Assembly (NCBI GenBank): GCA_017471945.1
Contig: JAFURH010000090.1
Location: forward strand, 1 to 32,420
Reading direction: 5' to 3'
From: Clostridia bacterium
GTDB lineage: Bacteria; Bacillota; Clostridia; Christensenellales; Borkfalkiaceae
Length of the DNA stretch: 32,420 nt
Part shown: positions 8,430 through 30,328 of the stretch, piece after piece
Position numbering within the stretch: the first letter of the stretch is position 1
Layout of the letters: each line of letters begins with the position of its first letter
Translations under genes and position numbers: made by a program
The notes under the pieces: generated by a model
Database searches by the model: none
Seen by the model: only the letters and a program-made list of their open reading frames with translations
Told to the model about the DNA's origin: nothing

Positions 8430-8433
8430 TTTT

Positions 8434-8442: not shown

Positions 8443-8489
8443 CTTATAAGAAAAATTCCTTTTTTTGTTAAAAATTTTTCGTCAAATAT

Positions 8490-8518
8490 TTGAAAAAAAA
8501 GTAAAAAAGTGCTATAAT
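8490..8518 (+). promoter_or_regulatory. Strong promoter of the topoisomerase operon
   Basis: TTGAAA (8490-8495), 17-bp spacer, TATAAT (8513-8518) with a TGC extended -10. AGAGG at 8561-8565 then precedes the ATG at 8571. Confidence 0.8.
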
Positions 8519-8570
8519 AAAATACAATGGGCGTTATTTTAACGCGTAATTCAAAAAAGCAGAGGAAAAA

Positions 8571-14966: not shown

Positions 14967-15619
14967 AAATTCAGTATTTGGGGCATTCTTGCTTCAAGCT
15001 AACCGAGAGTACGGGCACGACGGTGATCGCCGATCCGTATAAAGGCATCGGCTACGAGTTGCCCGAAGGGTTGACGGCGGACGCCGTGACCGTAAGCCAC
15101 GATCATTACGATCATAATAACGCGGGTGCGATCGGCGGTTCGCCCGCGGTGATAAAAAAGGACGGCTTTTTCGAACTGCCCGGGGTGGAGATCACGGGGA
15201 TCAAAAGCTACCACGACGACGAAGGGGGCAACCTTCGCGGCGAAAACGTCATTTATAAATTCCGTATGGACGGGCTTGAAATCTGTCATTTGGGCGATTT
15301 GGGCGAAGAGTGTTCAGCGGAACTTTTGGAACTTTTATTGCCCGTTAATATTTTGATCATTCCCGTCGGCGGAAATTATACCATCGACGCGGAGCTTGCG
15401 AAGGAATACGTAGACAGGATTATGCCCGATATCGTCATTCCTATGCATTATAAAACGCGGAACTCAAATATCGATATCGATAAGGCGCAAGCCTTTCTCG
15501 ACCTTTTCGACGACGAGGACGTAGACGTTTGCCATAAAGACGTTCTCGAATTCACCCGCGACGATCTCACGGAAGAAAACACGAAAATAATCTTAATGGA
15601 ACGGACGAAAATCGAATGA
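14963..15619 (+). CDS. Metal-dependent hydrolase, MBL fold (UPF0173-like)
   Basis: This is a 218-residue cytoplasmic metallo-beta-lactamase-fold protein. The binuclear metal motif HDHYDH is at residues 46-51. Further ligands are offered by HLGD (near residue 111) and the late PMHYK. Length and the MKIQYLGHSCF start agree with the UPF0173/YtkL group, whose substrate is not established. It is coupled by ATGA overlaps to the small protein upstream and to the Rho-like gene downstream. I see no secretion signal. Confidence 0.85.
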   Translation: MKIQYLGHSCFKLTESTGTTVIADPYKGIGYELPEGLTADAVTVSHDHYDHNNAGAIGGSPAVIKKDGFFELPGVEITGIKSYHDDEGGNLRGENVIYKFRMDGLEICHLGDLGEECSAELLELLLPVNILIIPVGGNYTIDAELAKEYVDRIMPDIVIPMHYKTRNSNIDIDKAQAFLDLFDDEDVDVCHKDVLEFTRDDLTEENTKIILMERTKIE

Positions 15620-17085
15620 AAAATTTTGCAATCAACGAATTCCGTTTTGCGGTTAAAGAATACCTGAACTCGGTCAGGATCTTAGAGTTGCGCTCTTACG
15701 GCAGATTTATCGGCGTTCAAAATCCAACCGAAAAGAAAAAAGGCGAGCTTTTAGACGACATTCTTTCCATTTTGATCGGCGAAGCGTATCCCGTAGAACC
15801 TTCAAAGCGCGGAGCTCCCGTGAAAAACGATTTCGTTGATCCGAACATCATTGATAAAATAGAAGAGTTGAAAAAGACCTATCTTCCCGACGGAATTCGG
15901 GAGGAAGAGTCTTTTTTTACCTTTGAGCCGAAGGAGAAATCTATGCTCGTCGTGAACGATCCGAATGGTACGAGCTTAGAGAATCTGAAAAATAAAGAGA
16001 TCTATTCGGGGCAGATCGCTACGGTAGACGGCGTGTCCCGACTCGTTCCTTTAAACGGCGAACTCGATTATCGAAAGATCGTGGTATCCGTCGAGCTGAT
16101 TCGGAAAAACGATCTTCGTGAAGGTGACATCGTCACTTGCTACGCCGATTCCCGTCCGCCTTGTTTATACGCGACGGAGATACTTTCTCGGAACGGATAT
16201 GCAAGCGATTCCCGTCCCCGCAAGAAATTCGACGAAACGGCGGTGGCGTATCCTTCGGACAAGTTACGGTTTATATTGGAAACAGACGATTCGATCGCTT
16301 CGAAATATTTTGAATGGCTGTTGCCGATCGGTAAAGGTCGGCGCGGGCTTCTTCTCTCCCCCCCGAAAGCGGGCAAGACCTTTTTATTGAAACGTTTGGT
16401 CGAATCGGCGCAAACGGCGAATCCGAATCTCACCGTTTACGCTTTATTGTTGGATCAAGCGCCAGAAACGGTCGGGGAATTCAGAAAAATACTTCCTGCC
16501 GATCACATTTTATATACCACTTACGAAGATTTGGCAGAAAAGCATATTTTTACGGCGGATTTCCTCTTGAACCGTGCAAAACGACAGGCTGAGGATGAAA
16601 AGGACGTACTGATCGTGGTCGATTCGCTGACGGCTCTTATGCGAGCCTATAACGAAACCGATTTGTCCTCGGGCGGAAAAACCTACGCTTGCGGACTTGA
16701 AAGCAAAACGCTTCACTATATTAAAAAATACTTGGGTTCTGCCCGTAACTTTGAAAAGGGCGGTTCGCTTACTATTCTCGGCGCAGTTTCCGTACAAACG
16801 GGAAACCCTGCCGACGATTTTGCGGCGGCTGAATTATTATCCGTAGCAAATCTGAGAATTTCTTTAAGCGGCGAGCTTGCGGCAAAGCGTATCTTTCCCT
16901 CCTTTGATTTTCTTTCCTCAAACACAGAGCAACCCGAACGGCTACTTTCGGATGCGGAAAGGGAGTGTGAATATCTTCTTAGAAACGGGTATTTTCAAAA
17001 AAAGAGCTTCGTAGATTTTCTGTTGCTCCTTAAAGCCTGTCAGAATGCAGAAGAATTGCGCGAAAAAATGAAAAAAGAACTATAA
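15616..17085 (+). CDS. rho: Divergent Rho-like RNA-binding ATPase, probably catalytically impaired
   Basis: The product has 489 residues in Rho order. A SAP-like Rho-N region is at about 20-60, an OB-fold RNA-binding region at about 135-215, and a RecA-type motor with Walker A SPPKAGKT at 248-255 and Walker B Asp336 (VVDSLT). The GSLTILG and KRIFP segments confirm the family. However, DERP of the motor reads DQAP, which puts Gln281 at the catalytic Glu (E. coli E211) and Ala at R212. The R269 position is Ala340. The GTGN loop reads SVAN, and the arginine finger R366 aligns with Glu438; R353 is kept as Arg425. Transcription termination activity is therefore doubtful. It may be a regulatory paralogue, with true Rho elsewhere. 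It is translationally coupled to the MBL gene and followed by a terminator. Confidence 0.78.
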   Translation: MKNFAINEFRFAVKEYLNSVRILELRSYGRFIGVQNPTEKKKGELLDDILSILIGEAYPVEPSKRGAPVKNDFVDPNIIDKIEELKKTYLPDGIREEESFFTFEPKEKSMLVVNDPNGTSLENLKNKEIYSGQIATVDGVSRLVPLNGELDYRKIVVSVELIRKNDLREGDIVTCYADSRPPCLYATEILSRNGYASDSRPRKKFDETAVAYPSDKLRFILETDDSIASKYFEWLLPIGKGRRGLLLSPPKAGKTFLLKRLVESAQTANPNLTVYALLLDQAPETVGEFRKILPADHILYTTYEDLAEKHIFTADFLLNRAKRQAEDEKDVLIVVDSLTALMRAYNETDLSSGGKTYACGLESKTLHYIKKYLGSARNFEKGGSLTILGAVSVQTGNPADDFAAAELLSVANLRISLSGELAAKRIFPSFDFLSSNTEQPERLLSDAERECEYLLRNGYFQKKSFVDFLLLLKACQNAEELREKMKKEL

Positions 17086-17098: not shown

Positions 17099-17133
17099 AA
17101 ATGGACTACCGCTCGCGTAGTCCATTTTTTTTT
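17099..17133 (+). terminator. Intrinsic terminator after the Rho-like gene
   Basis: A perfect 9-bp stem (17101-17109 with 17117-17125), extendable by A-T pairs, has a 7-nt loop and eight T residues. It separates the Rho-like operon from the carbon/redox island. Confidence 0.88.
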
Positions 17134-17203: not shown

Positions 17204-17232
17204 TTGAGATTCAAAAAAAAATATGATATAAT
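17204..17232 (+). promoter_or_regulatory. Strong promoter at the head of the malate/fumarate/Hdr island
   Basis: TTGAGA (17204-17209), 17-bp spacer, TATAAT (17227-17232) with TGA extended -10. It leaves a leader of about 100 nt before the ATG at 17340. No further promoter of this quality is seen until after the exchanger gene, consistent with one long transcript. Confidence 0.8.
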
Positions 17233-17339: not shown

Positions 17340-18290
17340 ATGAACAGCAAAGTTACTATCATCGGCGCAGGTTCGGTTGGCGCGACGATCGCGTATACGC
17401 TCGTTGCCAACGGTCCGGTTTCGGAAATCGTGTTGATCGATATCAATCGCGACAAAGCGATCGCAGAGGCAATGGATATCAAGCAGGCTACGCCTTTTTT
17501 GAATTCCGTTAATATCTACGAAGGGAGCTACGAGGACGCAGTGGGTTCTGATATCGTCGTGATCACGTCCGGGGTCGGCAGAAAACCCGGTCAGTCGCGT
17601 ATCGACTTAACGCAAACCAACGTGAATATTTTGAAATCGATCGCACCCGAAATCGTGAAATACGTTCCCGACGCGCTGTATCTGATCGTCGCGAACCCCG
17701 TAGACGTTTTAACCTACGTATTCCAAAAAGTAACGGGCGTTCCCGCAAGCCGCGTGATCGGTTCGGGTACGAGCCTTGATACCATTCGTTTGAGAACTCG
17801 TCTTTCCGAGCTTTATGCGGTGAACCAAAAGCAAGTGCACGCGTACGTGCTCGGCGAACACGGCGACAGTTCGTTCGTCGCTTGGTCTGCGGCGGATATT
17901 TCGGGAATTCACCTTTCCGACTATGAAAATTCCGTGACCAATCAAAAAGCGTTGGAAATTACGCCCTACACGAAGGAAGAAGTGGAAGAATACGTGAAAA
18001 AATCGGGCGGTAAGATCATCGCGGGCAAGGGCGCTACCTTCTACGGGATAGCAACCTCCGTCTGCCATATCATAAAGAATATCTATTCGGGCGCGGATAC
18101 GGTTGCAACCGTTTCCACCGTAATGAACGGCGAATACGGCGTTTCCGACGTCGCGCTCAGCACTCTTTGCGTGATTGGTACGGAAGGCGTTAAGACGACG
18201 CTCACGCCCAAGCTTTCCGACGAAGAAGTCGAAAAATTCCAACACAGCGCGCAGGTTTTAAAAGACGTTATTGCGCAGATCGATATTTAA
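17340..18290 (+). CDS. Lactate/malate dehydrogenase family (L-LDH scaffold), predicted malate-type
   Basis: This NAD-dependent 2-hydroxyacid dehydrogenase has 316 residues. GAGSVG (9-14) binds NAD, and the catalytic set Asp147, Arg150 and His174 (GEHGDSS) is intact. General annotation would be L-lactate dehydrogenase, and the GEHGD and GKGATFYGIA segments are LDH-like. Yet the residue before KPG, where LDH has the specificity glutamine Q102, is Arg81 (GVGRKPG). The Q102R change converts Bacillus LDH to malate/oxaloacetate use. Fumarase follows 10 bp later, which fits oxaloacetate to malate to fumarate. I chose ATG 17340 because GGAG lies 9 nt upstream; an upstream TTG at 17304 is unsupported. 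Substrate is inferred, not proven. Confidence 0.85.
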   Translation: MNSKVTIIGAGSVGATIAYTLVANGPVSEIVLIDINRDKAIAEAMDIKQATPFLNSVNIYEGSYEDAVGSDIVVITSGVGRKPGQSRIDLTQTNVNILKSIAPEIVKYVPDALYLIVANPVDVLTYVFQKVTGVPASRVIGSGTSLDTIRLRTRLSELYAVNQKQVHAYVLGEHGDSSFVAWSAADISGIHLSDYENSVTNQKALEITPYTKEEVEEYVKKSGGKIIAGKGATFYGIATSVCHIIKNIYSGADTVATVSTVMNGEYGVSDVALSTLCVIGTEGVKTTLTPKLSDEEVEKFQHSAQVLKDVIAQIDI

Positions 18291-18300
18291 GAGGTAACAA

Positions 18301-19677
18301 ATGGAATACCGTATTGAAAAAGACACGATGGGGGAAATGAAAGTCCCCGCAGACAGATATTGGGCGGCGCAAACGCAGAGAAGTTTTCAAAACTTCCCGA
18401 TCGGCGACGAGGTGATGCCTCGCGAGATCACGCGCGCTTTCGGCATATTGAAAAAAGCGGCGGCGCTTGCAAACAACAAGCTCGGGAAGCTTTCCGACGA
18501 AAAATTGCAGGCGATCAGCGCTGCTTGCGACGAGGTGATCTCGGGTTCTTTGAACGGTCATTTCCCGCTCGTCGTATGGCAGACGGGAAGCGGTACGCAG
18601 TCGAATATGAACGCAAACGAAGTTATCGCAAATCGCGGTAACGAGATTGCGGGCGCGAAAATTCTGCACCCCAACGACGATATCAATAAGAGTCAAAGCT
18701 CTAACGACACTTTCCCTACGGCGATGCATATCGCGGCGGTTCTTGCCATCGAAGATAAGCTTTTCCCCGCGATGGATAAACTTGTTGAAACATTCAAGAA
18801 ATTGGAAAAGGAAAACGAAGGGATCGTAAAGAGCGGCAGAACGCATTTGCAAGACGCCGTTCCCATCGCGTTTTCGCAAGAGATCAGCGGTTGGAGAAAT
18901 ATGATCGAAAAGACCAAAGCTCAGCTTACGCTCGCGCTTTCGGGGCTTAAAGAACTTGCGCTCGGAGGCACGGCGGTCGGAACGGGGCTCAACGCGCCCA
19001 AGGGCTTTGCGGAAGAGGTCGCAAATCAAGTAAGTATTCTTACGGGTAAGACCTTCGTTACCGCGGAAAACAAATATCACGCGCTTACGGCGAAAGACGA
19101 ACTCGTATTCGCGCACGGCGCGATCAAAGCGCTTGCGTGCAACCTTATGAAGATCGCAAACGATATCCGTTGGCTTGCCAGCGGACCTCGCGACGGACTC
19201 GGCGAAATTTTCATTCCCGAAAACGAGCCCGGCTCGTCGATTATGCCCGGGAAAGTCAACCCCACGCAATGCGAATCGATGACGATGGTCGCCGTGCAAG
19301 TAATGGCAAACGACGTCGCGGTGTCGGTCGGTGCTTCACAAGGCAACTTCGAACTCAACGTATTTATGCCCGTTATCATTTATAATTTCCTGCAATCGGT
19401 GCGACTTCTTTCCGACGGTATCGCTTCGTTTGAAAAGAACTGCGTAACGGGGATCAAAGCGAATAAGGAAAAAATGAAGCATAATCTGTATAATTCTTTG
19501 ATGCTCGTCACCGCGCTCAATCCGTATATCGGCTATGAAAACGCGGCGAAAACGGCAAAGAAGGCTTATAAAGAAAACGTTTCTTTGAAAGAAGCTTGCG
19601 TGGAACTCGGCTTCCTTACGGCGGAAAAGTTCGATGAAGTCTTCCGTCCCGAAGAAATGGCTTACCCGCAAAAGTAA
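18301..19677 (+). CDS. fumC: Fumarate hydratase, class II
   Basis: This oxygen-stable, iron-free fumarase has 458 residues and interconverts malate and fumarate. It has the superfamily signature [11 protein letters not shown] from residue 311, the active-site strands GSGTQSNMN and [10 protein letters not shown], and the SGRTHLQDA segment. The length is that of FumC; aspartase, a paralogue, differs in the residues around the substrate carboxylate, so FumC is the better call. It lies 10 bp after the malate/lactate dehydrogenase gene and 22 bp before hdrB, which places it in the same transcript as the fumarate reductase genes. Confidence 0.93.
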
Positions 19678-19699
19678 AAGAAAAAGGGAATGGATTAGA

Positions 19700-20479
19700 A
19701 TGAAAATCAGTTATTATCCCGGCTGTACGCTTAGAACGAAAGCCAAAGAATTGGACGTGACCGCCCGTCTTTGCGCAAAGGCTCTCGGCGTAGAAATGGA
19801 AGAAATCGAAAATTGGCAGTGTTGCGGCGCGGTATATCCCACGGGCACGGACGAGATCGCCACGAAGCTCTCCGCCGTCCGCGCGCTTGATCACGCTAAG
19901 CACAACGGCGGCAAACTTTTGACGCTTTGTTCGGCTTGCCACAACGTGATCAAACGCACGAACGAGGATATGAAGGCGGACGGAGATATATGTTTGCGCG
20001 CAAACAATTATTTAAAGCTCGACGAACCCTATAAGGGCGAAACGGAGGTTTTACATTATCTCGAAATGCTCAAAAAGATCGTCGGCTTCGACAATATCAA
20101 AAAAGCCGTCGTCAATCCCATCAATCGCAAAGTGGGGGCGTATTACGGGTGTTTGCTCCTTCGTCCCAGCGGCGTAATGGCGTTCGATAATCCCGAAAAT
20201 CCGACGATCATCGAGGATTTTATCCGTGCGATCGGCGGTACGCCCGTCAGCTATCCTTTCCGCAACGAATGTTGCGGCGCGTACGTTTCCTTGAAGAACA
20301 GCGAGTTGCCCAAAAAGAAGAGCAAAAAGGTGTTGGAAAGCGCAAAAGAAAAGGGTGCGGAAGAAGTGATCACGGCTTGCCCGCTCTGTCTTTATAATTT
20401 GCAAGTCAACGGCGAGGGGATCTTGCCCGTGAAATACTTTACGGAGCTTTTGGCAGAAGCGTTGGGGGTAAGCAAATGA
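19700..20479 (+). CDS. hdrB: Heterodisulfide reductase subunit B-like (HdrB), two CCG domains
   Basis: The product has 259 residues with two complete CCG motifs: C9-x31-CC(41-42)-x34-C77-x2-C80, and C151-x39-CC(191-192)-x34-C227-x2-C230. In methanogen HdrB these hold two non-cubane [4Fe-4S] clusters that cleave a disulfide. The first CCG begins YPGC and the second YYGC. I chose the ATG at 19700: the frame runs further up, but the upstream start would overlap fumC and lacks support. It is coupled to hdrC by ATGA. Bacteria with HdrABC-Flx usually lack CoM/CoB, so the disulfide or other acceptor is unknown here; fumarate chemistry nearby suggests a link to FrdB. Confidence 0.9.
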   Translation: MKISYYPGCTLRTKAKELDVTARLCAKALGVEMEEIENWQCCGAVYPTGTDEIATKLSAVRALDHAKHNGGKLLTLCSACHNVIKRTNEDMKADGDICLRANNYLKLDEPYKGETEVLHYLEMLKKIVGFDNIKKAVVNPINRKVGAYYGCLLLRPSGVMAFDNPENPTIIEDFIRAIGGTPVSYPFRNECCGAYVSLKNSELPKKKSKKVLESAKEKGAEEVITACPLCLYNLQVNGEGILPVKYFTELLAEALGVSK

Positions 20480-20862
20480 CGAAAGAAGAACGCATTGAAA
20501 ATATCAAACGGCTCAGCGGTACGGACGTAAGGAAGTGTATGAAATGCGGGAAATGCTCGGGTAGATGCCCCGCGTTCAAGGATATGGATATCAAGCCGCA
20601 TCAGTTCGTTTCTATGCTCGAAAAAGGAAAGATCGAGGAACTGTTGGAATGTAAAGCGATTTGGAACTGTCTTTCCTGTATGGCTTGCGTAGAGCGTTGC
20701 CCGCGCGGAGTCGCGCCCGCTTCCGTCGTCGAAGCGGTGAGAGATACCGTCGTGAGAATGCAAGGCAAGAACGGCATCAAAGCAGAGGATGTTCCTCCGA
20801 TCGTTGACGAACTCATTCCTCAACAACTCCTCGTCAGCGCGTATAGAAAATATAATAAGTAA
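20476..20862 (+). CDS. hdrC: Heterodisulfide reductase subunit C-like (HdrC), two [4Fe-4S]
   Basis: The product has 128 residues. Two CxxCxxCxxxC motifs (Cys21/24/27/31 and Cys65/68/71/75) bind two [4Fe-4S] clusters in the alpha-helical ferredoxin fold of HdrC. It passes electrons between HdrA and HdrB. The ATGA overlap with hdrB indicates translational coupling and a tight 1:1 partnership. A 44-bp gap then leads to hdrA, without a visible terminator. Confidence 0.9.
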   Translation: MTKEERIENIKRLSGTDVRKCMKCGKCSGRCPAFKDMDIKPHQFVSMLEKGKIEELLECKAIWNCLSCMACVERCPRGVAPASVVEAVRDTVVRMQGKNGIKAEDVPPIVDELIPQQLLVSAYRKYNK

Positions 20863-20906
20863 CGAGTTATTAAAAATCGAAAATCTAAACAAAGTGAGAA
20901 GATAAA

Positions 20907-22898
20907 ATGCAAAGAATCGGTGTTTTTATTTGTTGGTGCGGCAGTAATATCGCGGCAACGGTAGACGTAGAAAAAGTTGCGGAAGTGATCAAAAGCGAGC
21001 CCGGCGTCGTTTATTCCGTAAACTATCAGTATATGTGCTCCGAAAACGGTCAACAGCTCATCAAGAACGCAATCAAAGAACATAATCTTACGGGTATCGT
21101 GGTAGGGGCTTGCTCGCCCAGAATGCACGAAGCGACCTTCCGCAAAGCTGCGGAAAGCGTGGGGTTGAATCCGTATATGGTTGAAATCGCGAATATTCGC
21201 GAGCATTGTTCGTGGATTCATAAGGATATGGCAGAAGCGACGGAAAAAGCTATCATCCTCGTTCGTACCGCGATCGCGAAAGTAAAATTAAACGCTCCGC
21301 TCACGGCGGGCGAAAGCCCCGTCGTGAAACGTGCTCTCGTGATCGGGGGCGGTATCGCGGGGATTCAAGCCGCTTTGGATATTGCCGACGCGGGCTTTGA
21401 AGTGGATATCGTGGAAAAGAACGCGACGATCGGCGGCAGAATGGCGCAGCTCGATAAAACGTTCCCCACCCTCGACTGTTCGGCTTGTATTTTAACGCCG
21501 AAAATGGTGGATTGCGCGCAGCACGAAAAAATCGATATTCTCTCCTATTCGGAAATAGAGGACGTAAAAGGCTTCGTCGGGAATTTTAGCGTTAAGATCC
21601 GCCGCAAAGCGAGATACGTTGACGAAACGAAGTGCACGGGCTGTAAGATCTGTATGGAAAAATGCCCTTCGAAAAAAGGGTTGAACGATTTCAATATGAA
21701 CCTTAACACCCGCCCTGCGATTCATATTCCGTTCGCACAGGCGATCCCCAACGTAGCGGTGATCGATCCCGCACAATGCATCAAGCTCAAAACGGGTAAA
21801 TGCGGAATCTGTCAAAAATTCTGCGGCGTAGGCGCGATCGACTACGAGCAAAAAGATACCTTTATCGAACGTCAATACGGCGCGATCGTCGTGGCGACGG
21901 GCTTTAAGCCTATTTCTCTCGACGCGTTCAACGAGTACGGCTATACGGAAAACAAAGACGTTATCACTTCTCTTGAACTCGAAAGATTGATGAATGCGGC
22001 AGGTCCTTCCAACGGCGTTCTCGTCCGTCCTTCCGACGGTCAGCACCCGAAGGTAATCACCTTCATTCAATGCGTCGGTTCGCGTGATACGAGCGGTTGC
22101 GGCAAGCCTTATTGCTCTAAGATCTGCTGTATGTACACGGCGAAACACGCGATGCTTATCCGCGAAAAATACCCCGACACCGAAGTACACGTATTCTATA
22201 TCGACGTGCGTACGCCGGGGAAAAACTACGACGAATTCTTCCGTCGCGCGGTGGAACAGTACGGCGTTGACTATATCAAAGGTATGGTCGGAAAAGTGTA
22301 TAACGAAAACGGCAAGCTGATGGTGCAGGGCTCTAACCTTATCGATAACGAGCAGGTTACGATCGAATCCGATCTCGTCGTTTTAGCGGCGGCGATCGAA
22401 CCCGAACCTTCCGTAAGAAAGGTTGCGACGTTGCTTACGGCAAGTATCGATACGAATAATTTCCTTACCGAATCGCACGCGAAGCTTCGTCCTGTGGAAA
22501 GCCCTACGGCGGGCGTATATCTTGCGGGCGTATGCCAAGGACCTAAGGATATCCCCGAAACCGTTTCGCAGGCTTCCGCTTGCGCGGCGAAAGTGATCGG
22601 GCTTTTGGTGAAAGATAAGTTAAAGACGAATCCCTGCGTTGCCACGCCCGACGAAATGATGTGTAACGGCTGTTCGCAATGCGCGAACGTGTGCGCGTAC
22701 GGCGCGATCACCTACGTCGATAAAGAATTCAGACTCGGCGGAGGCAAGACGGAAGTAAGGCGCGTAGCGTCCGTAAATCCCGCGGTATGTCAGGGATGCG
22801 GCGCTTGTACGGTCACTTGTCCGTCGGGGGCGATGGACCTTAAAGGATTCAGCTCCAAGCAAATTATGTCGGAGGTGGAAGCGATATGCAAAATGTAA
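20907..22898 (+). CDS. hdrA: Heterodisulfide reductase subunit A-like flavoprotein (HdrA), bifurcation core
   Basis: The product has 663 residues. The N-terminal HdrA-specific domain begins with CWCG. The thioredoxin-reductase-like FAD domain carries GGGIAG at 147-152 and the cysteine segment FPTLDCSACILTPKM, which in HdrA holds an extra cluster near the flavin. Internal ferredoxin motifs (CTGCKICMEKCP; CGICQKFC) and two C-terminal ones (CNGCSQCANVC; CQGCGACTVTC) give several [4Fe-4S] sites. HdrA is the flavin bifurcation site in methanogen complexes. The 3' end overlaps the MvhD-like gene by 13 bp. Whether this copy bifurcates cannot be told from sequence by eye. Confidence 0.9.
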   Translation: MQRIGVFICWCGSNIAATVDVEKVAEVIKSEPGVVYSVNYQYMCSENGQQLIKNAIKEHNLTGIVVGACSPRMHEATFRKAAESVGLNPYMVEIANIREHCSWIHKDMAEATEKAIILVRTAIAKVKLNAPLTAGESPVVKRALVIGGGIAGIQAALDIADAGFEVDIVEKNATIGGRMAQLDKTFPTLDCSACILTPKMVDCAQHEKIDILSYSEIEDVKGFVGNFSVKIRRKARYVDETKCTGCKICMEKCPSKKGLNDFNMNLNTRPAIHIPFAQAIPNVAVIDPAQCIKLKTGKCGICQKFCGVGAIDYEQKDTFIERQYGAIVVATGFKPISLDAFNEYGYTENKDVITSLELERLMNAAGPSNGVLVRPSDGQHPKVITFIQCVGSRDTSGCGKPYCSKICCMYTAKHAMLIREKYPDTEVHVFYIDVRTPGKNYDEFFRRAVEQYGVDYIKGMVGKVYNENGKLMVQGSNLIDNEQVTIESDLVVLAAAIEPEPSVRKVATLLTASIDTNNFLTESHAKLRPVESPTAGVYLAGVCQGPKDIPETVSQASACAAKVIGLLVKDKLKTNPCVATPDEMMCNGCSQCANVCAYGAITYVDKEFRLGGGKTEVRRVASVNPAVCQGCGACTVTCPSGAMDLKGFSSKQIMSEVEAICKM

Positions 22899-23338
22899 CG
22901 GAAAAGAAAGAATTTACGCCTAATATCGTAGCGTTTTGCTGTAACTGGTGCTCGTATGCAGGCGCAGACCTTGCTGGTTCAAGCCGTTTGAGCTACCCCG
23001 CAAACGTGAAGATCATTCGCGTACCTTGCTCTTGTCGCGTGAATCCGTCCTTTATTTTAAAAGCCTATCAACAAGGCGCGGACGGCGTGATCCTTTGCGG
23101 TTGCCATCCCGGCGATTGCCACTACGTGACGGGGAACTATTATACGAGAAGAAGAATGTCCCTCTTATTCAGCTTTTTGAATTATATGGGCATCGAGAAA
23201 GAACGCACCCGCGTGGAATGGGTTTCCGCTGCGGAAGGCGCGCGCTTCTCCGCCGTTATGAACGATTTCGTGCAAAAAATCACCGAACTCGGCGAAAATA
23301 AACGCCTGACCGATTTGAGAGTAAAGGAGGGCGAATAA
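22886..23338 (+). CDS. mvhD: MvhD/FlxD-like [2Fe-2S] electron-transfer subunit
   Basis: The product has 150 residues. The cysteine pattern FCCNWCSYAGAD, CSCRVNP and GCHPGDCHY is the MvhD (methyl-viologen hydrogenase delta) family signature. That subunit binds one [2Fe-2S] and feeds electrons into HdrA. In bacteria the same family is FlxD of the HdrABC-FlxABCD complex. The start overlaps the hdrA end by 13 bp, a sign of direct physical partnership. The gap to the next gene is 1 nt. The product is soluble, with no export signal. Confidence 0.9.
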   Translation: MQNVTEKKEFTPNIVAFCCNWCSYAGADLAGSSRLSYPANVKIIRVPCSCRVNPSFILKAYQQGADGVILCGCHPGDCHYVTGNYYTRRRMSLLFSFLNYMGIEKERTRVEWVSAAEGARFSAVMNDFVQKITELGENKRLTDLRVKEGE

Positions 23339-23339
23339 A

Positions 23340-24320
23340 ATGCGTGACGTTGAATTGAAAATGAAAGAACGCGCGAGCGAGCTCCTTAAAAGCGGCGAAG
23401 TTGCCCGCGTGATCGGTTGGAAAAAAGGCGAATTTTATCACGACCCCCAGCCCGCTTCTTTTGAAAGCGTAGAAGAGTTGAACGCATTCGTCTATAACGG
23501 ATTTTGCGGCGCGAATCTTTCCAAATACCTCATTCAAATGAGCAAAAAAGAAGGAAAGACGGCGATTTTCTTAAAGCCTTGCGATTCGTACAGCTTTAAT
23601 CAGCTCGTAAAAGAACACCGTATCGTTCGTGAAAATATCCACGTGATCGCGATCGAATGTCAAGGCAAACTCGATATCGAAAAGATCAAGGCGAAGGGCT
23701 TTGATTTCGTCACGGAAGTAGAAGAAAACGGCGACGAAATTGCCGTCGCTTCTCTCTACGGCAACGGAGCGGTTCAAAAGGACGAAGTGCTTTTGGGAAA
23801 ATGCGAAACCTGTAAAGGAAAAGTGCATCAAGTAAAGGATGAGGAGATCATTCTCCACGAAATGCAAGCGGGTAAGAAAAACCGCTTTGAAGAGGTTGAA
23901 AAACTCGAAGCGATGACGGAGGACGAACGGTTTGCGTTCTGGCGCGAACAGCTTCAAAAATGTATCCGTTGCAACGCGTGCAGAAACGTTTGCCCCGCGT
24001 GCTCGTGCTTAAAATGCGTGTTCGATAACCCCGCTTCGGGGATCGCGGCGAAAGCGAACGACGATAAATTCGAAGAACAGCTTTTCCATATCATTCGCGC
24101 CTTTCACGTTTCGGGCCGTTGCACGGATTGCGGCGAGTGTTCGAGAGTTTGTCCGCAGAACATTCCTTTGCACCTTCTCAACCGTAAATTTATCAAGGAT
24201 ATCGACGGCTTATACGGCGAATATCAGGCGGGGGAAACCGCCGAAGGCAAAACGCCTTTGACTTCTTATACGGAAGGCGACGCCGAACCCAACGACGTAG
24301 TGAACGGGGAGGTTAGATAA
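23340..24320 (+). CDS. Flx-type [4Fe-4S] subunit with FrhB/FdhB-like domain (FlxB/FlxC role)
   Basis: The product has 326 residues. The first ~150 residues resemble the FrhB/FdhB-like segment of F420-hydrogenase and formate-dehydrogenase beta subunits (KPCDSYSF, then HVIAIECQG). This kind of subunit can bind flavin. A CETC pair follows near residue 160. Two ferredoxin motifs come next: CIRCNACRNVCPAC, with a further CxxC, and CTDCGECSRVCP. The last ~45 residues are polar and low complexity. It follows the MvhD-like gene by 1 nt and overlaps the next gene by 1 nt. I cannot decide whether it corresponds to the named FlxB or FlxC. Confidence 0.75.
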   Translation: MRDVELKMKERASELLKSGEVARVIGWKKGEFYHDPQPASFESVEELNAFVYNGFCGANLSKYLIQMSKKEGKTAIFLKPCDSYSFNQLVKEHRIVRENIHVIAIECQGKLDIEKIKAKGFDFVTEVEENGDEIAVASLYGNGAVQKDEVLLGKCETCKGKVHQVKDEEIILHEMQAGKKNRFEEVEKLEAMTEDERFAFWREQLQKCIRCNACRNVCPACSCLKCVFDNPASGIAAKANDDKFEEQLFHIIRAFHVSGRCTDCGECSRVCPQNIPLHLLNRKFIKDIDGLYGEYQAGETAEGKTPLTSYTEGDAEPNDVVNGEVR

Positions 24321-25354
24321 TGTTTAAGATTGCAAAAGAAAGATTAAACGAACTTTATTCCAAGATCGCCGAAACGTTCGGGCTTTTTATTCCTATCAAA
24401 AAAGGCGGAGAGGTCAACTATCACGTTTGGGGAGAAGGGAAAGAAGTTTCTTTGGAAACCTTGAAAACGGTAAAATCCCCCAAAAACGCCTTTTTCCCGC
24501 AGTCGGAAAATTTGATGAAGTTCAAAACCGAAGGGAAAAATCTTGAAATTATCGACGTGCGCTGGGATAAAACGGAGAAACCTTTCGTTATGTTCGGCGT
24601 AAAGGCTTGCGATTATAAGGCGATCGAAGTGCTCGATAAGGTATTCCTTGCCGATCCCGTAGACACCTATTATCAGTCCAGAAGAGAAGCGACTACGATC
24701 GTAACGCTCGCTTGCTCCCGTCCCGAAGAAAGCTGTTTTTGTAACGCGTTCGGGATCGACGCGACCGCGCCGCAAGGCGACGTGACCACTTGGCTCGACG
24801 GCGAAAACCTCTATTGGCAGGCGAACACCCAAAAAGGCGAAGCGCTCACCGCGGCGGTGAAAGAGCTGTTGACGGAAGGGGGAGAAGAAAAGGTCGAAGC
24901 GCAAAAGGCAAGCACCAAAGCGATTATGGAAAAATTGCCGTTTGCTTCCCTTGATCTTTCGCGCTTTAAGCCCGAAAATTTGAACGAGCTTTTCGAGGAT
25001 CCCGCTTGGGAATCTATGAGCGAGGCTTGCTTGGGTTGCGGCACGTGTACCTTCGTTTGCCCGACCTGTCAATGCTTCGATATCCGCGATTTCAAAACCA
25101 ACGAAGGCGTGATCCGTTATCGTTGTTGGGATTCTTGTATGTATTCCGATTTCACGCTTATGGCGCACGGAAATTCGAGAACTACGCAAATGCAGAGATT
25201 CCGTCAGCGGTTTATGCACAAGCTCGTGTATTATCCTTCGCAGAACGACGGTTTGTATTCCTGCGTAGGCTGCGGCAGATGCGTAAATAAATGCCCGCAG
25301 AAGCTGAATATCGTGAAAGTGATCAAAACGCTGGGAGGTAAAAACAATGATTGA
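24320..25354 (+). CDS. Sulfhydrogenase-beta/AsrA-like [4Fe-4S] dicluster subunit (Flx-type)
   Basis: The product has 344 residues. The N-terminal ~220 residues form the domain of sulfhydrogenase beta and anaerobic sulfite reductase A (MFGVKACDYKAI; ACSRPEESCFC). The C-terminal part carries two ferredoxin motifs, CLGCGTCTFVCPTC and CVGCGRCVNKCP. Members shuttle electrons between a flavin NAD subunit and a partner, here probably the FlxA-like product of the next gene, whose ATG overlaps this stop by 8 bp. Sulfite reductase itself is unlikely: no siroheme AsrC-like subunit is encoded here. Confidence 0.78.
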   Translation: MFKIAKERLNELYSKIAETFGLFIPIKKGGEVNYHVWGEGKEVSLETLKTVKSPKNAFFPQSENLMKFKTEGKNLEIIDVRWDKTEKPFVMFGVKACDYKAIEVLDKVFLADPVDTYYQSRREATTIVTLACSRPEESCFCNAFGIDATAPQGDVTTWLDGENLYWQANTQKGEALTAAVKELLTEGGEEKVEAQKASTKAIMEKLPFASLDLSRFKPENLNELFEDPAWESMSEACLGCGTCTFVCPTCQCFDIRDFKTNEGVIRYRCWDSCMYSDFTLMAHGNSRTTQMQRFRQRFMHKLVYYPSQNDGLYSCVGCGRCVNKCPQKLNIVKVIKTLGGKNND

Positions 25355-26174
25355 AGAAACTTTGATTCCGAAAATCGGCGTCGTAACGGATATCCGTAAG
25401 GATACGCCCGACGTAAAAACTTTCCGCGTGGTCGGCACGGACGGCAAAAAGCTTTTCAAGCATATGCCCGGTCAATGCGCGATGGTTTCTATTCCCGGGG
25501 TAGGAGAATGTATGTTTTCCATTACTTCTTCCCCCACGAACGAGGAATATATGGAATTTTCCATTAAAAAATGCGGTTGCGTGACGGAAGTTATCCACGC
25601 GCTCGAAGTAGGCGCGCAGATCACCGTCAGAGGGCCGTACGGCAAAAATTTCCCCGTAGAAGAAGATTTCAAGGGTAAGGATTTGCTCTTTATCGCAGGC
25701 GGTATCGGACTTGCGCCGCTCAGAAGCGTTATCAACTACGTTCGGCACTATCGAAAAAACTACGGTAAAGTCGTGATCGTTTACGGCGCGAGAAGCAAAG
25801 ACGACCTCGTAGATATCGATGAAATCCAGAACGAGTGGGTAAACGAGCCGAATATGGAAGTTTATCTCACGATCGACCGCCCGCAGGAAGGCTGGGACGG
25901 ACACGTTGGATTCGTACCTGCCTACGTCAAAGAGCTCGGACTCGACCCGAATATGACGGCGGTGCTTTGCGGTCCTCCCATTATGATCAAGTTCACGCTC
26001 GCAGGACTTTTGGAACTTGGATTTGAAAAATCCCGCGTCTACACGACGCTCGAGCTCCGTATGAAATGCGGCGTCGGAAAATGCGGAAGATGTAACGTCG
26101 GCGATAAATTCGTGTGCAAAGACGGTCCCGTATTCCGTATGACGGAACTCGACGAATTACCCGACGAATATTAA
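25347..26174 (+). CDS. flxA: FlxA-like FAD/NAD(P)-binding oxidoreductase (PyrK/AsrB type)
   Basis: The product has 275 residues. An FAD-binding beta-barrel spans about 1-105, an NAD(P) domain 108-225 (LLFIAGGIGLAPL; CGPPIM), and a C-terminal [2Fe-2S] motif of the dihydroorotate-dehydrogenase-B type is at about 235-260 (CGVGKCGRCN and a later Cys). This is the NADH entry subunit in HdrABC-Flx complexes. AsrB and HydG of sulfhydrogenase share the fold. The 8-bp overlap with the previous gene supports one complex. NAD versus NADP cannot be settled by eye. Confidence 0.83.
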   Translation: MIEETLIPKIGVVTDIRKDTPDVKTFRVVGTDGKKLFKHMPGQCAMVSIPGVGECMFSITSSPTNEEYMEFSIKKCGCVTEVIHALEVGAQITVRGPYGKNFPVEEDFKGKDLLFIAGGIGLAPLRSVINYVRHYRKNYGKVVIVYGARSKDDLVDIDEIQNEWVNEPNMEVYLTIDRPQEGWDGHVGFVPAYVKELGLDPNMTAVLCGPPIMIKFTLAGLLELGFEKSRVYTTLELRMKCGVGKCGRCNVGDKFVCKDGPVFRMTELDELPDEY

Positions 26175-26186
26175 GGAGAAAAACCA

Positions 26187-26861
26187 ATGGAAAAAATGGT
26201 AAACGTATTTCTTTTCGGAAAAAAGTATGAAGTTCCGGAAAGTTTGACGATAATGAAAGCGATGGAATACGCGGGATATCAGCTCGTGCGCGGATGCGGT
26301 TGCAGAAACGGCTTTTGCGGCGCGTGCTCGACGATCTATCGTATCAAAGGTCAGCAGGAGCTTAAAACCTGCCTTGCTTGCCAAACGAAAGTCGAAGAGG
26401 GTATGTACGTAGCAACGCTTCCTTTCTTCCCGCTCGTAAAACAAGTTTACGATATCGAAAAGATCAAGCCCACGCAGCAGATTATGATGCAGCTCTATCC
26501 CGAAATTTATTCGTGTATCGGTTGCAACGCTTGCACGAAGAGCTGTACGCAGGAACTCAACGTTATGCAGTATATCGCGTACGCGCAACGCGGCGAATAC
26601 GAAAAAGCTGCGGAAGAGAGCTTTGACTGCGTAATGTGCGGAGTATGTTCTTCCCGTTGCCCTGCGGGGATCTCGCATCCTCAGGTCGCGGTGCTTGCTC
26701 GTAGACTTACGGGCAAATACCTTGCGCCGAAGAGCGAGCATCTCGTCAGCCGCGTAGCGGAAATCGACAAAGGGGATTGCAAAGCGGCTCTCGAAGCGAT
26801 TATGAACACCCCGCTCGAAGAACAAAAACATCTCTACAACACGAGAGAGATCGAGAAATAA
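26187..26861 (+). CDS. frdB: Fumarate reductase iron-sulfur subunit, TfrB-like without CCG domain
   Basis: The product has 224 residues. An N-terminal plant-type [2Fe-2S] ferredoxin domain (Cys39, Cys44, Cys47 and Cys62 or Cys65) is followed by an alpha-helical domain with two CxxCxxCxxxC motifs (Cys110/113/116/120; Cys148/151/154/158). Membrane SdhB/FrdB has one [3Fe-4S] next to a quinone site; here both clusters look like HdrC-type [4Fe-4S]. Archaeal TfrB has this same order plus a C-terminal CCG (HdrB) domain that is missing here, while HdrB is encoded seven genes upstream. AAGGAG precedes the ATG. The gene is 10 bp before frdA. It is soluble, with no membrane segment. Confidence 0.82.
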   Translation: MEKMVNVFLFGKKYEVPESLTIMKAMEYAGYQLVRGCGCRNGFCGACSTIYRIKGQQELKTCLACQTKVEEGMYVATLPFFPLVKQVYDIEKIKPTQQIMMQLYPEIYSCIGCNACTKSCTQELNVMQYIAYAQRGEYEKAAEESFDCVMCGVCSSRCPAGISHPQVAVLARRLTGKYLAPKSEHLVSRVAEIDKGDCKAALEAIMNTPLEEQKHLYNTREIEK

Positions 26862-26871
26862 GGAGAAGCGT

Positions 26872-28476
26872 ATGTATCAGTATACTCAAGAACAACTTGA
26901 ATCAATGAAAAAAGTAGAAGAAACCCGCGCTTCCCGTATTGAAAAATTACACGCGCGTATGTCGGCGGAAGAAAAGGACGCCGTTTTGGCGGAATTCCAT
27001 CCCGACTATATCACTTCGGCGTATGAAGAACTCAAAGTCGGAAAAAATAAAGGAGGGAAGGTGCTCCACGAGCTTGCCGATCTTTTGCAGGGTCGTTCCA
27101 GAACGCTTGACCTTACGATCGATCTTACGAAGATCGACTACGACGTAGACGTGCTCGTGATCGGCGGAGGCGGCGCAGGATCTTCGGCGGCGATCGAAGC
27201 GCACGAACGCGGCGCAAACGTTATGATCGTCACGAAACTCCGTTTGGGCGACGCGAACACGGCGATGGCGGAAGGCGGTATCCAAGCGGCGGATAAACCC
27301 AACGACAGCCCTGCAACGCACTATCTCGACGCGCTCGGCGGGGGGCATTTCAAAAATAAGCCCGAGCTTTTGTATAAGCTGGTAAACGAAGCGCCCGAAG
27401 CCATTCTTTGGCTTAACAACCTCGGCGTTATGTTCGATAAGGAAGAGGACGGCACGATGGTCACCACGCACGGCGGCGGTACGTCCAGAAAGCGTATGCA
27501 CGCTTGCCGCGACTATTCGGGCTCGGAAATTATGAGAACGCTTCGCGACGAAGTGTTTAACCGCGGTATCACCGTCGTCGATTTCACTTCCGCGATCGAA
27601 CTTATCAAGGATACCGAAGGCAAGGTCGCGGGCGCGGTCTTAATGAATATGGAAACGCAGGAAATCTTGATCGCAAGGGCAAAAACCATCGTGATCGCAA
27701 CGGGCGGCGCGGGCAGATTGCACTATCAAGGCTTCCCGACTTCCAATCACTACGGCGCAACGGCGGACGGACTCGTTTTGGGGTACAGAGCGGGCGCGAA
27801 GCTTCTCTATCCCGAAACCCTTCAATATCACCCTACGGGCGCGGCAGAGCCCACGCAAATCTACGGCGCGCTCGTAACCGAAAAGGTGCGTTCGTTGGGC
27901 GCACAGCTCGTCAATAAAGACGGCGAAGCGTTCGTCTATTCGCTCGAAACGCGCGACGTTACGGCTTCTTCCATTATCCGCGAATGTAAAGCGCATAAGA
28001 AAGGCATTAAAACGACGGACGGCGAGGGCGTATGGCTGGATACGCCGCTGATCGATATCTTAAACGGCGAAGGAACGATCGAAAAACGTATTCCCGCAAT
28101 GCTTCGTATGTTTGGCAAATACGGGATCGATATTCGGAAAGAACCCATTTTGATCTATCCTACTCTTCATTATCAGAACGGCGGTTTGGATATAGGCGCA
28201 AACGGTATGACTTGCGTGGAAAATCTCTACGTTGCGGGCGAAGCGGTCGGGGGGATTCACGGCACGAACCGCTTGATGGGGAACTCCCTTCTCGATATTA
28301 TCGTATTCGGCAGAAACGCCGGTCAGCAAGCGGGCGAGAAGTGCAAGAGCGTTCAGCTTAAAGAACTCACGCTCGATCACGTGCAAGAATTCGAGAAAGA
28401 ACGTAAAGAAGCGGGAATTTCTTCGGAGATGCCTTCTCCCAGACTTCTTCCCGATTACAGAAGAAAAGTGAATTGA
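26872..28476 (+). CDS. frdA: Fumarate reductase flavoprotein subunit, soluble TfrA/FrdA type
   Basis: The product has 534 residues. An unusual ~90-residue charged N-terminal extension precedes the FAD motif GGGGAG (98-103). Fumarate-site residues are all present: HPTG (His320), Arg361 in RDVT, His433 in LHYQNGG, and Arg467 in NRLMGNSLLD. The histidine that binds FAD covalently in membrane FrdA/SdhA is replaced by Asn129 (ANTAMAEGG), so FAD should be non-covalent, as in thiol:fumarate reductase and L-aspartate oxidase. The C-terminal helical domain is short: only ~50 residues follow the second FAD region. L-aspartate oxidase (NadB) is the main alternative, but pairing with frdB and the fumC-Hdr operon favours fumarate reductase. 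Confidence 0.87.
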   Translation: MYQYTQEQLESMKKVEETRASRIEKLHARMSAEEKDAVLAEFHPDYITSAYEELKVGKNKGGKVLHELADLLQGRSRTLDLTIDLTKIDYDVDVLVIGGGGAGSSAAIEAHERGANVMIVTKLRLGDANTAMAEGGIQAADKPNDSPATHYLDALGGGHFKNKPELLYKLVNEAPEAILWLNNLGVMFDKEEDGTMVTTHGGGTSRKRMHACRDYSGSEIMRTLRDEVFNRGITVVDFTSAIELIKDTEGKVAGAVLMNMETQEILIARAKTIVIATGGAGRLHYQGFPTSNHYGATADGLVLGYRAGAKLLYPETLQYHPTGAAEPTQIYGALVTEKVRSLGAQLVNKDGEAFVYSLETRDVTASSIIRECKAHKKGIKTTDGEGVWLDTPLIDILNGEGTIEKRIPAMLRMFGKYGIDIRKEPILIYPTLHYQNGGLDIGANGMTCVENLYVAGEAVGGIHGTNRLMGNSLLDIIVFGRNAGQQAGEKCKSVQLKELTLDHVQEFEKERKEAGISSEMPSPRLLPDYRRKVN

Positions 28477-28501
28477 TAGTGAATAGAGAAAAGCACGAGA
28501 C

Positions 28502-28533
28502 AAAACGCACGAAGGTACGCTTTGTGCGTTTTT
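28502..28533 (+). terminator. Hairpin between frdA and the exchanger gene (terminator or attenuator)
   Basis: A 9-bp stem (28502-28510 with 28524-28532) and a 13-nt loop end in five T residues. It lies after frdA and just before the exchanger RBS, with no clear new promoter between. It may partially terminate and set a lower exchanger level. Confidence 0.55.
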
Positions 28534-28558
28534 GTCCGCAAATCGGAGGTTTAATAGT

Positions 28559-29800
28559 ATGATTTATTTAGGTAGTGTCGCGGGCTCGTTGTTATCGACT
28601 TTATTTATCGTTTTTGCGATTGCTGCGATAGGGTATTTGGTCGGCGGGATCAAGATCAAAGGTATTTCTCTCGGTACGGCAGGGGTACTTCTGATTGCCC
28701 TCGTCGTCGGAATCGTATTCAGTCTTTGCGGAGATAAGATCGGCGATAGCGTAACGCTCGCCTTTACGATCGGAAAAACGAAGATCACGCTCTACGACGC
28801 GTCGATCAAAAAACTGTTCGATCTCGTATCGAATATCGGTACGGCAATGTTCGTCACGGCAGTCGGCTTGATTGCTGGACCGAAATTTTTCCGTTCCTTT
28901 AATAAAAGTATGATTTCCTACGTCGCTATGGGCGCGATCATCATCGTGCTCGGCGTTGGTATGACGGTACTTATTTCCGCTCTCGGCGGAATGGATATGG
29001 CAACGGGCACGGGGCTTTTGGCTGGTTCGCTTACGTCTACACCCGCTTTCTCGGCGGCAAAAGACGCGGCGAAAGAAATCAGCGAAGCGTTGGAATCCAA
29101 AGTTGCGGCGGGGTATGGTATCGGATATCTCTACGGCGTTTTAGGCGTAGTGTTGTTCGTGCAGATTATGCCGAAGATCTTAAAAGTCAATATCGAAGAA
29201 GAGCGCGCAAACTTTATCGCGGCAGGTACGGTCGTCCTCCAGGAGGACGATAAAAAGCGTGTCGATATCGACGATTTCGGCTTCTTTCCGTTCTGTTTAA
29301 CGGTTGTTTTAGGTCTTATTATCGGGGCAATCAAGATCCCCGGGATCAATTTCAGCCTCGGTTCAAGCGGCGGTACGCTCGTTTCCGGTCTTATCGTAGG
29401 GCATTTCGGTCACGTGGGAAAAATCAATTTACGAGTATCCAAAACCACGTTGAATTTCTTCCGCGAACTCGGTCTTATGCTCTTTTTGATCGGTGCGGGT
29501 GTTCCTGCGGGACTTCGGTTTATCGATAGTTTCAGTCCTTGGTATTTTGTTTACGGTATCATTTTAACGACCGTTCCTATGATAGTAGGCTTTATTCTCG
29601 GAAAGTACGTGTTCAAACTCTCGATTTTCAACAATCTCGGTTCGATCACGGGTGGTATGACTTCTACTCCCGCTTTGGGCTCTTTGATCAACGTAGCGGG
29701 CACGGACGACGTTTCTTCGGCATACGCCGCAACGTATCCGATCGCCTTGGTTTTGATCGTAGTCTCGGCTAATTTAATGGTAACGATCGGTTGTATGTAA
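28559..29800 (+). CDS. AAE/SucE-family dicarboxylate or amino-acid exchanger, short form
   Basis: This is a polytopic membrane protein of 413 residues, with two hydrophobic halves each carrying the family repeat (GSLTSTPAF and GGMTSTPAL) of the aspartate:alanine exchanger (AspT/YidE/SucE) group. Corynebacterium SucE is a succinate exporter of this family, and the neighbours make succinate, so succinate export or fumarate/succinate or aspartate/succinate exchange is the best guess. SucE and AspT are ~540-560 residues and carry TrkA-C domains between the halves. Here that linker is short, so cytoplasmic regulatory domains are absent. ATG 28559 is preceded by GGAGG at 28545-28549. Two terminator-like hairpins bracket it. 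Confidence 0.68.
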   Translation: MIYLGSVAGSLLSTLFIVFAIAAIGYLVGGIKIKGISLGTAGVLLIALVVGIVFSLCGDKIGDSVTLAFTIGKTKITLYDASIKKLFDLVSNIGTAMFVTAVGLIAGPKFFRSFNKSMISYVAMGAIIIVLGVGMTVLISALGGMDMATGTGLLAGSLTSTPAFSAAKDAAKEISEALESKVAAGYGIGYLYGVLGVVLFVQIMPKILKVNIEEERANFIAAGTVVLQEDDKKRVDIDDFGFFPFCLTVVLGLIIGAIKIPGINFSLGSSGGTLVSGLIVGHFGHVGKINLRVSKTTLNFFRELGLMLFLIGAGVPAGLRFIDSFSPWYFVYGIILTTVPMIVGFILGKYVFKLSIFNNLGSITGGMTSTPALGSLINVAGTDDVSSAYAATYPIALVLIVVSANLMVTIGCM

Positions 29801-30043: not shown

Positions 30044-30048
30044 AAATG

Positions 30049-30086
30049 AAAAACCGTTGGTTTGTTATAAGACCGACGGTTTTTTC
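30049..30086 (+). terminator. Second terminator-like hairpin downstream of tRNA-Ser
   Basis: A ~12-bp stem with one G-U pair (about 30049-30061 with 30072-30085) and a T run. The tandem arrangement with the preceding hairpin gives tight insulation. Confidence 0.7.
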
Positions 30087-30250: not shown

Positions 30251-30328
30251 GATTACACTCCTATCTTGACGTAGCTTTTCAGTCGGGACGGGTAGCAGGT
30301 TTTGTTAAAAATAGTACAGGAGGAAACT

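Follow-up and report, generated by a model that had tools for sequence, protein, structure and literature searches.

A candidate electron-bifurcating NADH:fumarate reductase operon of gut Clostridia and the HdrB subtype that accompanies it

The contig JAFURH010000090.1 of a Clostridia bacterium (GCA_017471945.1; Christensenellales, Borkfalkiaceae), analysed here over its full 32,420 nucleotides and referred to as the window, carries twelve plus-strand open reading frames (ORFs) between positions 17340 and 29800, in the order mdh-fumC-hdrB-hdrC-hdrA-flxD-flxC-flxB-flxA-frdB-frdA-transporter. It is likely, judging from sequence comparison, that this operon encodes a reductive branch whose fumarate reductase is soluble, works without quinone and draws its electrons from flavin-based bifurcation, with HdrB as the putative relay. 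A first-pass annotation of this DNA had asked whether such an arrangement was already described. It was, as a hypothesis: excerpts of a 2020 paper on the 'succinate operon' of Pseudoclostridium thermosuccinogenes propose the coupling of fumarate and ferredoxin reduction (PMC7282089) and cite a preprint on bifurcation (Koendjbiharie and van Kranenburg 2019, 10.20944/preprints201912.0288.v1). The central idea is therefore not new, and the window represents a further member in gut Clostridia. What is new is the order of the core genes, identical in 52 of 52 loci, the five arrangements in which FrdBA and Hdr genes occur, an HdrB subtype with a short HdrC that tracks FrdB, and a set of absences in the genus. 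This gene-family comparison adds support to the published bifurcation hypothesis.

The twelve genes are the following:

17340..18290, plus strand, mdh, lactate/malate dehydrogenase family, with Arg81 in the specificity loop
18301..19677, plus strand, fumC, class II fumarase (TIGR00979, 730 bits, cut-off 664.75)
19700..20479, plus strand, hdrB, FrdBA-associated subtype with its ten CCG cysteines intact
20476..20862, plus strand, hdrC, short form (128 amino acids) with two 4Fe-4S sites
20907..22898, plus strand, hdrA, putative flavin adenine dinucleotide (FAD) bifurcation subunit, E359/K413 aligned with E356/K409
22886..23338, plus strand, flxD (mvhD), FlpD family (PF02662, 186 bits)
23340..24320, plus strand, flxC, Fe-S protein (domain scan)
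24320..25354, plus strand, flxB, Fer4_22, sulfhydrogenase-beta-like Fe-S protein
25347..26174, plus strand, flxA, FAD- and NAD-binding domains plus 2Fe-2S, AsrB/DHODB-like
26187..26861, plus strand, frdB, 2Fe-2S and two 4Fe-4S motifs, without CCG domain
26872..28476, plus strand, frdA, fumarate reductase flavoprotein with an N-terminal extension of about 88 amino acids
28559..29800, plus strand, AspT/YidE-type exchanger, PF06826 (family scan of the protein from 28562)

The operon and its subunits

The ORFs, together with domain and family scans, bear out the twelve same-strand genes and the order that the first-pass annotation had given them. The close packing that it described for the first eleven is also confirmed: by their coordinates, the genes are separated by 10 bp (mdh-fumC), 22 bp (fumC-hdrB), 44 bp (hdrC-hdrA), 1 bp (flxD-flxC), 12 bp (flxA-frdB) and 10 bp (frdB-frdA), or overlap by 4 bp (hdrB/hdrC), 13 bp (hdrA/flxD), 1 bp (flxC/flxB) and 8 bp (flxB/flxA). 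The transporter ATG at 28559 lies 82 bp beyond frdA.

A FrdB scan of genome contigs confirmed at least 529 relatives among 596 candidate stretches, and the best 80 of these, largely gut metagenome-assembled genomes (MAGs), were fetched. Fifty-two of the best 80 span the locus, reaching at least 9000 bp upstream and 2400 bp downstream of frdB. All 52 have the nine-gene core hdrB-hdrC-hdrA-flxD-flxC-flxB-flxA-frdB-frdA in the same order and on the same strand; mdh is present in 38 of them, fumC in 51 and the transporter in 42. FrdB occurs in 32/37 genomes of the genus, the window's own included, and the five genomes lacking it are 61-73% complete. A strong FrdB match is found in 5/24 other genera of the order; within the phylum sample (see below), FrdB is found in none of the 14 further genomes of the class. 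The operon is real, well conserved and probably functional. On a contig labelled as a Spirochaetales MAG (L157), frdB (81% identity) is accompanied by flxB, flxA and frdA, through misbinning or transfer.

The first-pass annotation likened FrdB to a TfrB devoid of CCG domains. Indeed, a domain scan of the window protein detects no CCG domain in FrdB, and the methanogen TfrB model (488 positions) matches FrdB at positions 19-101, HdrC at 123-218 and HdrB at 262-465, that is, in successive stretches borne by separate proteins. HdrC and HdrB could therefore supply the part that FrdB lacks. A Rosetta-stone reading of the natural TfrB fusion is a hint that FrdB, HdrC and HdrB are in contact. The motif cysteines of FrdB are invariant in 127/127 rows, except C37 (97%). 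In FrdA, His320, Glu337, Arg340, Arg361, His433 and Arg467 are invariant in 118/118 sequences and align with residues of the SdhA active site. Asn129, likewise Asn in 118/118, occupies the position of the His that links the flavin (covalent FAD) in SdhA. E. coli FrdA deprived of the covalent flavin link is reported to go on reducing fumarate but to lose the oxidation of succinate. The N-terminal extension of FrdA (window 26872-27135) contains R19, R29, H43 and D45, invariant in 118/118; the matches to solved structures do not reach it, and it is present in FrdA unlinked to hdr as well. The absence of a membrane anchor, also claimed earlier, holds for the operon, and Sdh_cyt exceeds its cut-off in 0/41 genomes of the genus set (two weak matches).

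The ten cluster cysteines of HdrB are invariant in 83/83 rows. This protein matches 5odc_B (102 bits). Among the NCBIfam models, that of the SdhE anchor scores best (135 bits, E 3e-39), with the HdrB model level at 131 bits. HdrA aligns with the solved HdrA of 5odc over its full length (686 bits). K413 and E359, the equivalents of K409 and E356, are kept in 83/83 rows and in 53/53 rows of a second alignment. According to excerpts of PMC12054007, this Lys/Glu pair has been proposed to separate bifurcating from non-bifurcating HdrA.

FrdBA, Hdr and an HdrB subtype across the phylum

The phylum sample comprised 398 genomes, of which 39, the window's included, have FrdB at E <= 1e-30 (frdB+). Regions around frdB were fetched for all 38 frdB+ genomes other than the window's, a locus counting as linked when hdr genes lie no more than 10.5 kb away and share its strand. 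The genome search suggested at the outset, for frdBA beside hdrABC-flx, gave a divided answer: 21/38 loci are linked and the other 17 are not. Five of the linked loci have HdrABC+FlxABCD, eleven have HdrA+FlxD, mostly also with HdrBC and further HdrA-like stretches, and five have HdrCB alone. Counting that of the window, five arrangements bring FrdBA and hdr genes together, the four other orders being frdBA-hdrBCA-flxDCBA; hdrCBA-flxDCBA-frdBA; hdrCBA with further HdrA-like stretches, flxD-flxC and frdBA; and hdrCB-frdBA. HdrA at E <= 1e-120 is found in 35/39 frdB+ genomes vs 94/359 others.

On an unrooted FrdBA tree, built from 55 of 57 candidate rows (two were left out for length), the hdr-linked rows need three changes; a single gain of the linkage is not upheld, and the unrooted tree does not separate gains from losses. 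L122, whose contig begins within hdrA, bears a wrong label in this tree. In L081, the one locus of the HdrA+FlxD group read over its whole length, a Qmo-like protein of 1084 amino acids (6377-9631) lies between hdrA and flxD in the FrdBA operon, each of its halves having HdrA-like parts; loci related to L081 show similar extra HdrA matches. Three genomes without adjacent hdr genes (G093, G135 and G140) have a similar ORF directly after frdA, which in G135 (L095, 4848-5855) joins a ferredoxin to a cytochrome b561 domain, as found by domain scan. In G099 and G442, ORFs with haem-binding-type motifs, recognized by eye, precede frdB. We infer that these b561-type and haem-motif neighbours may provide a quinol-linked input to FrdBA in G093, G135, G140, G099 and G442.

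HdrABC-Flx operons located away from frdBA are of two kinds, with a short or a long HdrC. The unlinked short-HdrC kind occurs in seven frdB+ genomes, the unlinked long-HdrC kind in 19 frdB-minus and ten frdB+ genomes, five of the latter having also the short kind beside frdBA. HdrC measures 117-134 amino acids in 36 FrdBA-associated rows vs 171-193 in 29 canonical rows. In a tree of 65 chosen HdrB sequences, the 36 FrdBA-associated and the 29 canonical ones are split at one branch with a support of 100/100. For this comparison, 22 of the 94 frdB-minus HdrA+ genomes were fetched, chosen from the HdrA hit list (L212, L218 and L219 gave no HdrB); L224 (G190) was left out of the tree owing to its very long branch, and unlinked loci were assigned to the two HdrB kinds after the first tree had been seen. 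A single in-frame TGA, probably encoding selenocysteine, occurs in many HdrA genes across the phylum. The HdrA frame stops near codon 195 in L220, L222, L226, L227, L232, L238 and L239, and these seven TGA-stopped loci all carry the canonical HdrB kind.

A profile made from 14 FrdBA-type HdrB was run on all 398 genomes, with no picking of loci. Twenty-eight genomes score 305-424 bits, the next best reaching 284.8, and all 28 are frdB+. They fall in 11 families, and 17 of them had no row in the profile. The co-occurrence of subtype and frdB has a Fisher p of 2e-34 for all of these and a hypergeometric p of 1e-22 for the 17, values that are not corrected for kinship. In seven of the 28 genomes the HdrB subtype and frdBA stand at separate loci, so that a shared operon alone does not explain the co-occurrence. 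Full-text literature searches found, in the text returned, no description of a FrdBA-specific HdrB subtype or of its co-occurrence with FrdB. The subtype can be used as a sequence marker in the search for such systems among bacteria of the gut and rumen.

Known systems, proposed mechanism and alternatives

The FlxABCD-HdrABC complex of Desulfovibrio vulgaris is said to be an NADH dehydrogenase/heterodisulfide reductase, as reportedly described by Ramos et al. in 2015. By kind of subunit it resembles the window, which has the same seven in one cluster. The window differs in that FrdBA follows in the same operon, in its HdrB/HdrC subtype, confined to frdB+ genomes across the phylum sample, and in a genus where DsrC exceeds its cut-off in 0/41 genomes (one weak match). 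Methanogen TfrAB shares with the window an FrdA-like TfrA, but its TfrB joins FrdB-, HdrC- and HdrB-like stretches in one chain, whereas the window has three separate proteins beside HdrA and Flx. The window proteins score under the TfrA/TfrB cut-offs (FrdB 39 and HdrB 42 bits vs 385; FrdA 350 vs 718). The methanogen HdrABC-MvhADG complex (5odc) is akin to the window through HdrA and HdrB, with the bit scores given above, and through its MvhD family, to which FlxD belongs. Here an NAD-binding module replaces the hydrogenase subunits, and fumarate reductase would replace CoM-S-S-CoB as the acceptor. Unlike the membrane quinol:fumarate reductase FrdABCD, the operon encodes neither cytochrome b nor a membrane anchor. 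It also departs from SdhABE, given an SdhE score of 135 vs a cut-off of 500 and no menaquinone synthesis over cut-off in the 41 genus genomes.

The closest known counterpart is the P. thermosuccinogenes operon. Compared by description, as given in excerpts of PMC7282089, it likewise clusters a fumarate hydratase, a seven-gene Flx-Hdr set, fumarate reductase and a possible transporter; unlike the window's, it has no mdh listed and belongs to another lineage. According to the same excerpts, that operon rises about 4-fold under CO2 limitation, although the change is not significant for all subunits. They also recount an older study in which H2 brought succinate formation almost to nil, which fits a bifurcating enzyme. 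CRISPRi has been described for P. thermosuccinogenes as well (PMC9044749).

Menaquinone synthesis finds no footing in the genus set. MenD exceeds its cut-off in 0/41 genomes, the 36 weaker matches being read as other thiamine diphosphate enzymes, and MqnA/D give no match at all (0/41). Rnf was likewise rejected as a ferredoxin sink, since the RnfC matches in 40 genomes are all under the cut-off (0/41 over it) and PF03116 (RnfD-type, Rnf/Nqr) is found in 0/41. An [FeFe]-hydrogenase is present in 38/41 genus genomes; one in the window's genome scores 602 bits with the monomeric group B model, above its cut-off of 450. With no Rnf/Nqr over cut-off and a hydrogenase so widespread, ferredoxin reduced by the Flx-Hdr-Frd system would most simply leave its electrons as H2. 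The RnfC-like match of the window's genome is a 451-amino-acid protein with the RnfC N-terminal part at its C-terminal end; it lies in what, judged by eye, is a glycyl-radical-enzyme microcompartment-type operon (L193, 5146-15525).

We infer complex formation, electron path, bifurcation, direction and export from sequence, as follows. Carbon would flow from oxaloacetate through malate and fumarate to succinate. NADH would be oxidised at FlxA, and its electrons would pass by the Fe-S proteins FlxB/C and FlxD to the HdrA flavin, where they would be split. The low-potential electron would go to ferredoxin (Fd) and the high-potential one along HdrC, HdrB, FrdB and FrdA to fumarate, HdrB being an electron relay to FrdB and not a disulfide reductase. 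The predicted reaction is 2 NADH + fumarate + 2 Fd(ox) -> 2 NAD+ + succinate + 2 Fd(red), and the [FeFe]-hydrogenase would reoxidise ferredoxin. Given the potentials listed in excerpts of PMC5861303 (fumarate/succinate +33 mV, crotonyl-CoA -10 mV, NAD -320 mV), the gap between fumarate and NAD leaves ample energy for bifurcation. One succinate would dispose of three NADH (one of them at malate dehydrogenase) instead of two, thus leaving more pyruvate for acetate and ATP. By redox arithmetic, for each glucose the bifurcating case needs 2/3 succinate instead of 1, and the acetate set free rises by 1/3.

Several observations weigh against this mechanism. Hdr genes within 10.5 kb are absent at 17/38 frdB loci, and four of the 39 frdB+ genomes (G127, G131, G356 and G440) have no HdrA at E <= 1e-120. 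The HdrB subtype is missing in 11/39 frdB+ genomes: in G093, G099, G135, G140 and G442 frdB lies beside cytochrome-type genes (our own reading), in G314 the locus ends at the contig end, and five (G127, G131, G356, G440 and G190) are without explanation. G151 possesses the subtype, yet a different Fe-S ORF, seen by eye, lies upstream of its frdBA; the two lowest of the 28 scores, moreover, are those of G151 (319 bits) and G341 (305 bits), whose families (f101 and f148) have no profile row. The HdrA tree shows the same split as HdrB with weak support (67). The K409/E356 equivalents are found in 16/16 HdrA of frdB-minus genomes as well, so that the pair speaks for competence to bifurcate, not for coupling to fumarate. 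All ten cluster cysteines of HdrB are kept, which would be compatible with disulfide chemistry. The absences rest on the genus set because the window's genome is 79% complete. Finally, Na2S had an effect opposite to that of H2, called confusing by the authors in excerpts of PMC7282089. The soluble NADH/fumarate/ferredoxin complex of the first-pass annotation thus stands in part: the successive TfrB stretches, the HdrB subtype, the HdrA pair and the lack of quinone synthesis or Sdh_cyt over cut-off speak for it, and the FrdBA loci without hdr and the frdB+ genomes without HdrA against it.

Among the alternatives, the same complex might operate without bifurcation, Flx-Hdr being a plain NADH:fumarate wire with ferredoxin no obligate partner. 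This is unlikely. The energy drop would permit an uncoupled enzyme and the HdrB/FrdBA co-occurrence alone says nothing on ferredoxin reduction, but the full-length alignment of HdrA with 5odc, its conserved Lys/Glu pair and the hydrogenase as a possible ferredoxin sink (38/41) argue otherwise. Slightly less probable still is that HdrABC-Flx is an ordinary disulfide reductase acting on a small thiol or protein and that FrdBA, merely co-transcribed, is fed by the resulting thiol or another donor. Such a role would agree with the retained cysteines, with the activity known for FlxABCD-HdrABC and with the use of thiols by TfrAB; it accords poorly with an FrdB lacking a CCG domain, with DsrC over cut-off in none of the 41 genus genomes and with an HdrB subtype found only with frdB in 398 genomes, even when unlinked.

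A syntroph would need the reverse direction, namely succinate oxidation driven by reduced ferredoxin (confurcation). The hdrCB-frdBA loci L086 and L087, with fumarase-like and large membrane-protein-like ORFs upstream (by eye), could fit succinate oxidation there. For the window this appears very improbable, given Asn at the flavin-linking position in 118/118 FrdA, with the consequence reported for the E. coli enzyme, and an operon that has mdh and fumC at its head and an exchanger as its last gene. We give the least credence, in equal measure, to two further models. An enzyme that takes its electrons from quinol through HdrB as the anchor, after the manner of SdhABE (8-methylmenaquinol:fumarate reductase), is brought to mind by the best NCBIfam match of HdrB, SdhE, level with the HdrB model; that match ends at SdhE position 236/282, lies far under its cut-off, and meets with the lack of MenD over cut-off and of MqnA/D in the genus set. 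FrdBA as a free-standing soluble reductase fed by reduced ferredoxin or flavodoxin would suit the four frdB+ genomes without HdrA, but not the conserved cis linkage (52/52) and the co-occurring HdrB subtype.

The preferred reading remains the bifurcating NADH:fumarate reductase. A broader proposal, to which we give a little less than an even chance, is that HdrABC-Flx may serve generally as an engine of bifurcation whose acceptor end can be exchanged. The HdrB/HdrC subtype, derived from a disulfide reductase, would be a dedicated, thiol-free relay to soluble FrdBA and would replace the membrane quinol module on which some other FrdBA seem to rely. If HdrB is a relay, it would show how the HdrA engine gains new electron acceptors. 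An NADH-driven bifurcating fumarate reductase would explain the joint formation of succinate and H2 in fermenters without quinones or Rnf; quinone-free gut Clostridia would make both from NADH without Rnf. In gut and rumen, propionate formation and methanogenesis draw on succinate and H2.

Transcription signals and carbon-side genes

The signals and the gene that flank the operon are the following:

15616-17085, upstream gene, ATP-synt_ab domain, Rho-like
17099..17127, plus strand, intrinsic terminator hairpin after the upstream gene (z -4.6)
17204..17232, plus strand, promoter-like site TTGAGA-17-TATAAT with TG (extended -10), an 11/12 match to consensus only
about 28496..28538, plus strand, stable hairpin between frdA and the transporter (z -4.05)
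30048..30085, plus strand, terminator at the operon end, 3' of the transporter (z -7.1)

The hairpin at 17099-17127 sets the operon apart from the upstream gene. Of the 'one strong promoter at the head' in the first-pass annotation, what is retained is the 11/12 site, about 108 bp upstream of the mdh ATG; its strength is another matter, as it is a consensus match only and promoter-like sites across the whole region show no excess (10 vs 12.3 +/- 3.5 by chance). The stable hairpin after frdA suggests that transcription of the transporter is partly separate from that of the rest of the operon. Beyond the operon end, a 683-amino-acid ORF (window 30302-32353) starts like a lipoprotein, contains Cys-rich repeats within the first third of its length and has no Pfam match at E <= 0.001.

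The exchanger is a possible succinate exporter, on the basis of its family, PF06826. The mdh product scores 349.5 bits with the NCBIfam L-lactate dehydrogenase model, above the cut-off of 339. Its Arg81 aligns with a Gln in the lactate dehydrogenase 2zqy, the second-best solved match, and is invariant in 47/47 mdh proteins. At this specificity position, Arg denotes malate and Gln lactate. A lactate dehydrogenase was therefore dropped as a candidate despite the score, and the 'malate-type' label of the first-pass annotation is retained. The best solved match, PDB 1y6j, is named an L-lactate dehydrogenase yet has Arg at the specificity position, and is possibly a malate dehydrogenase itself.

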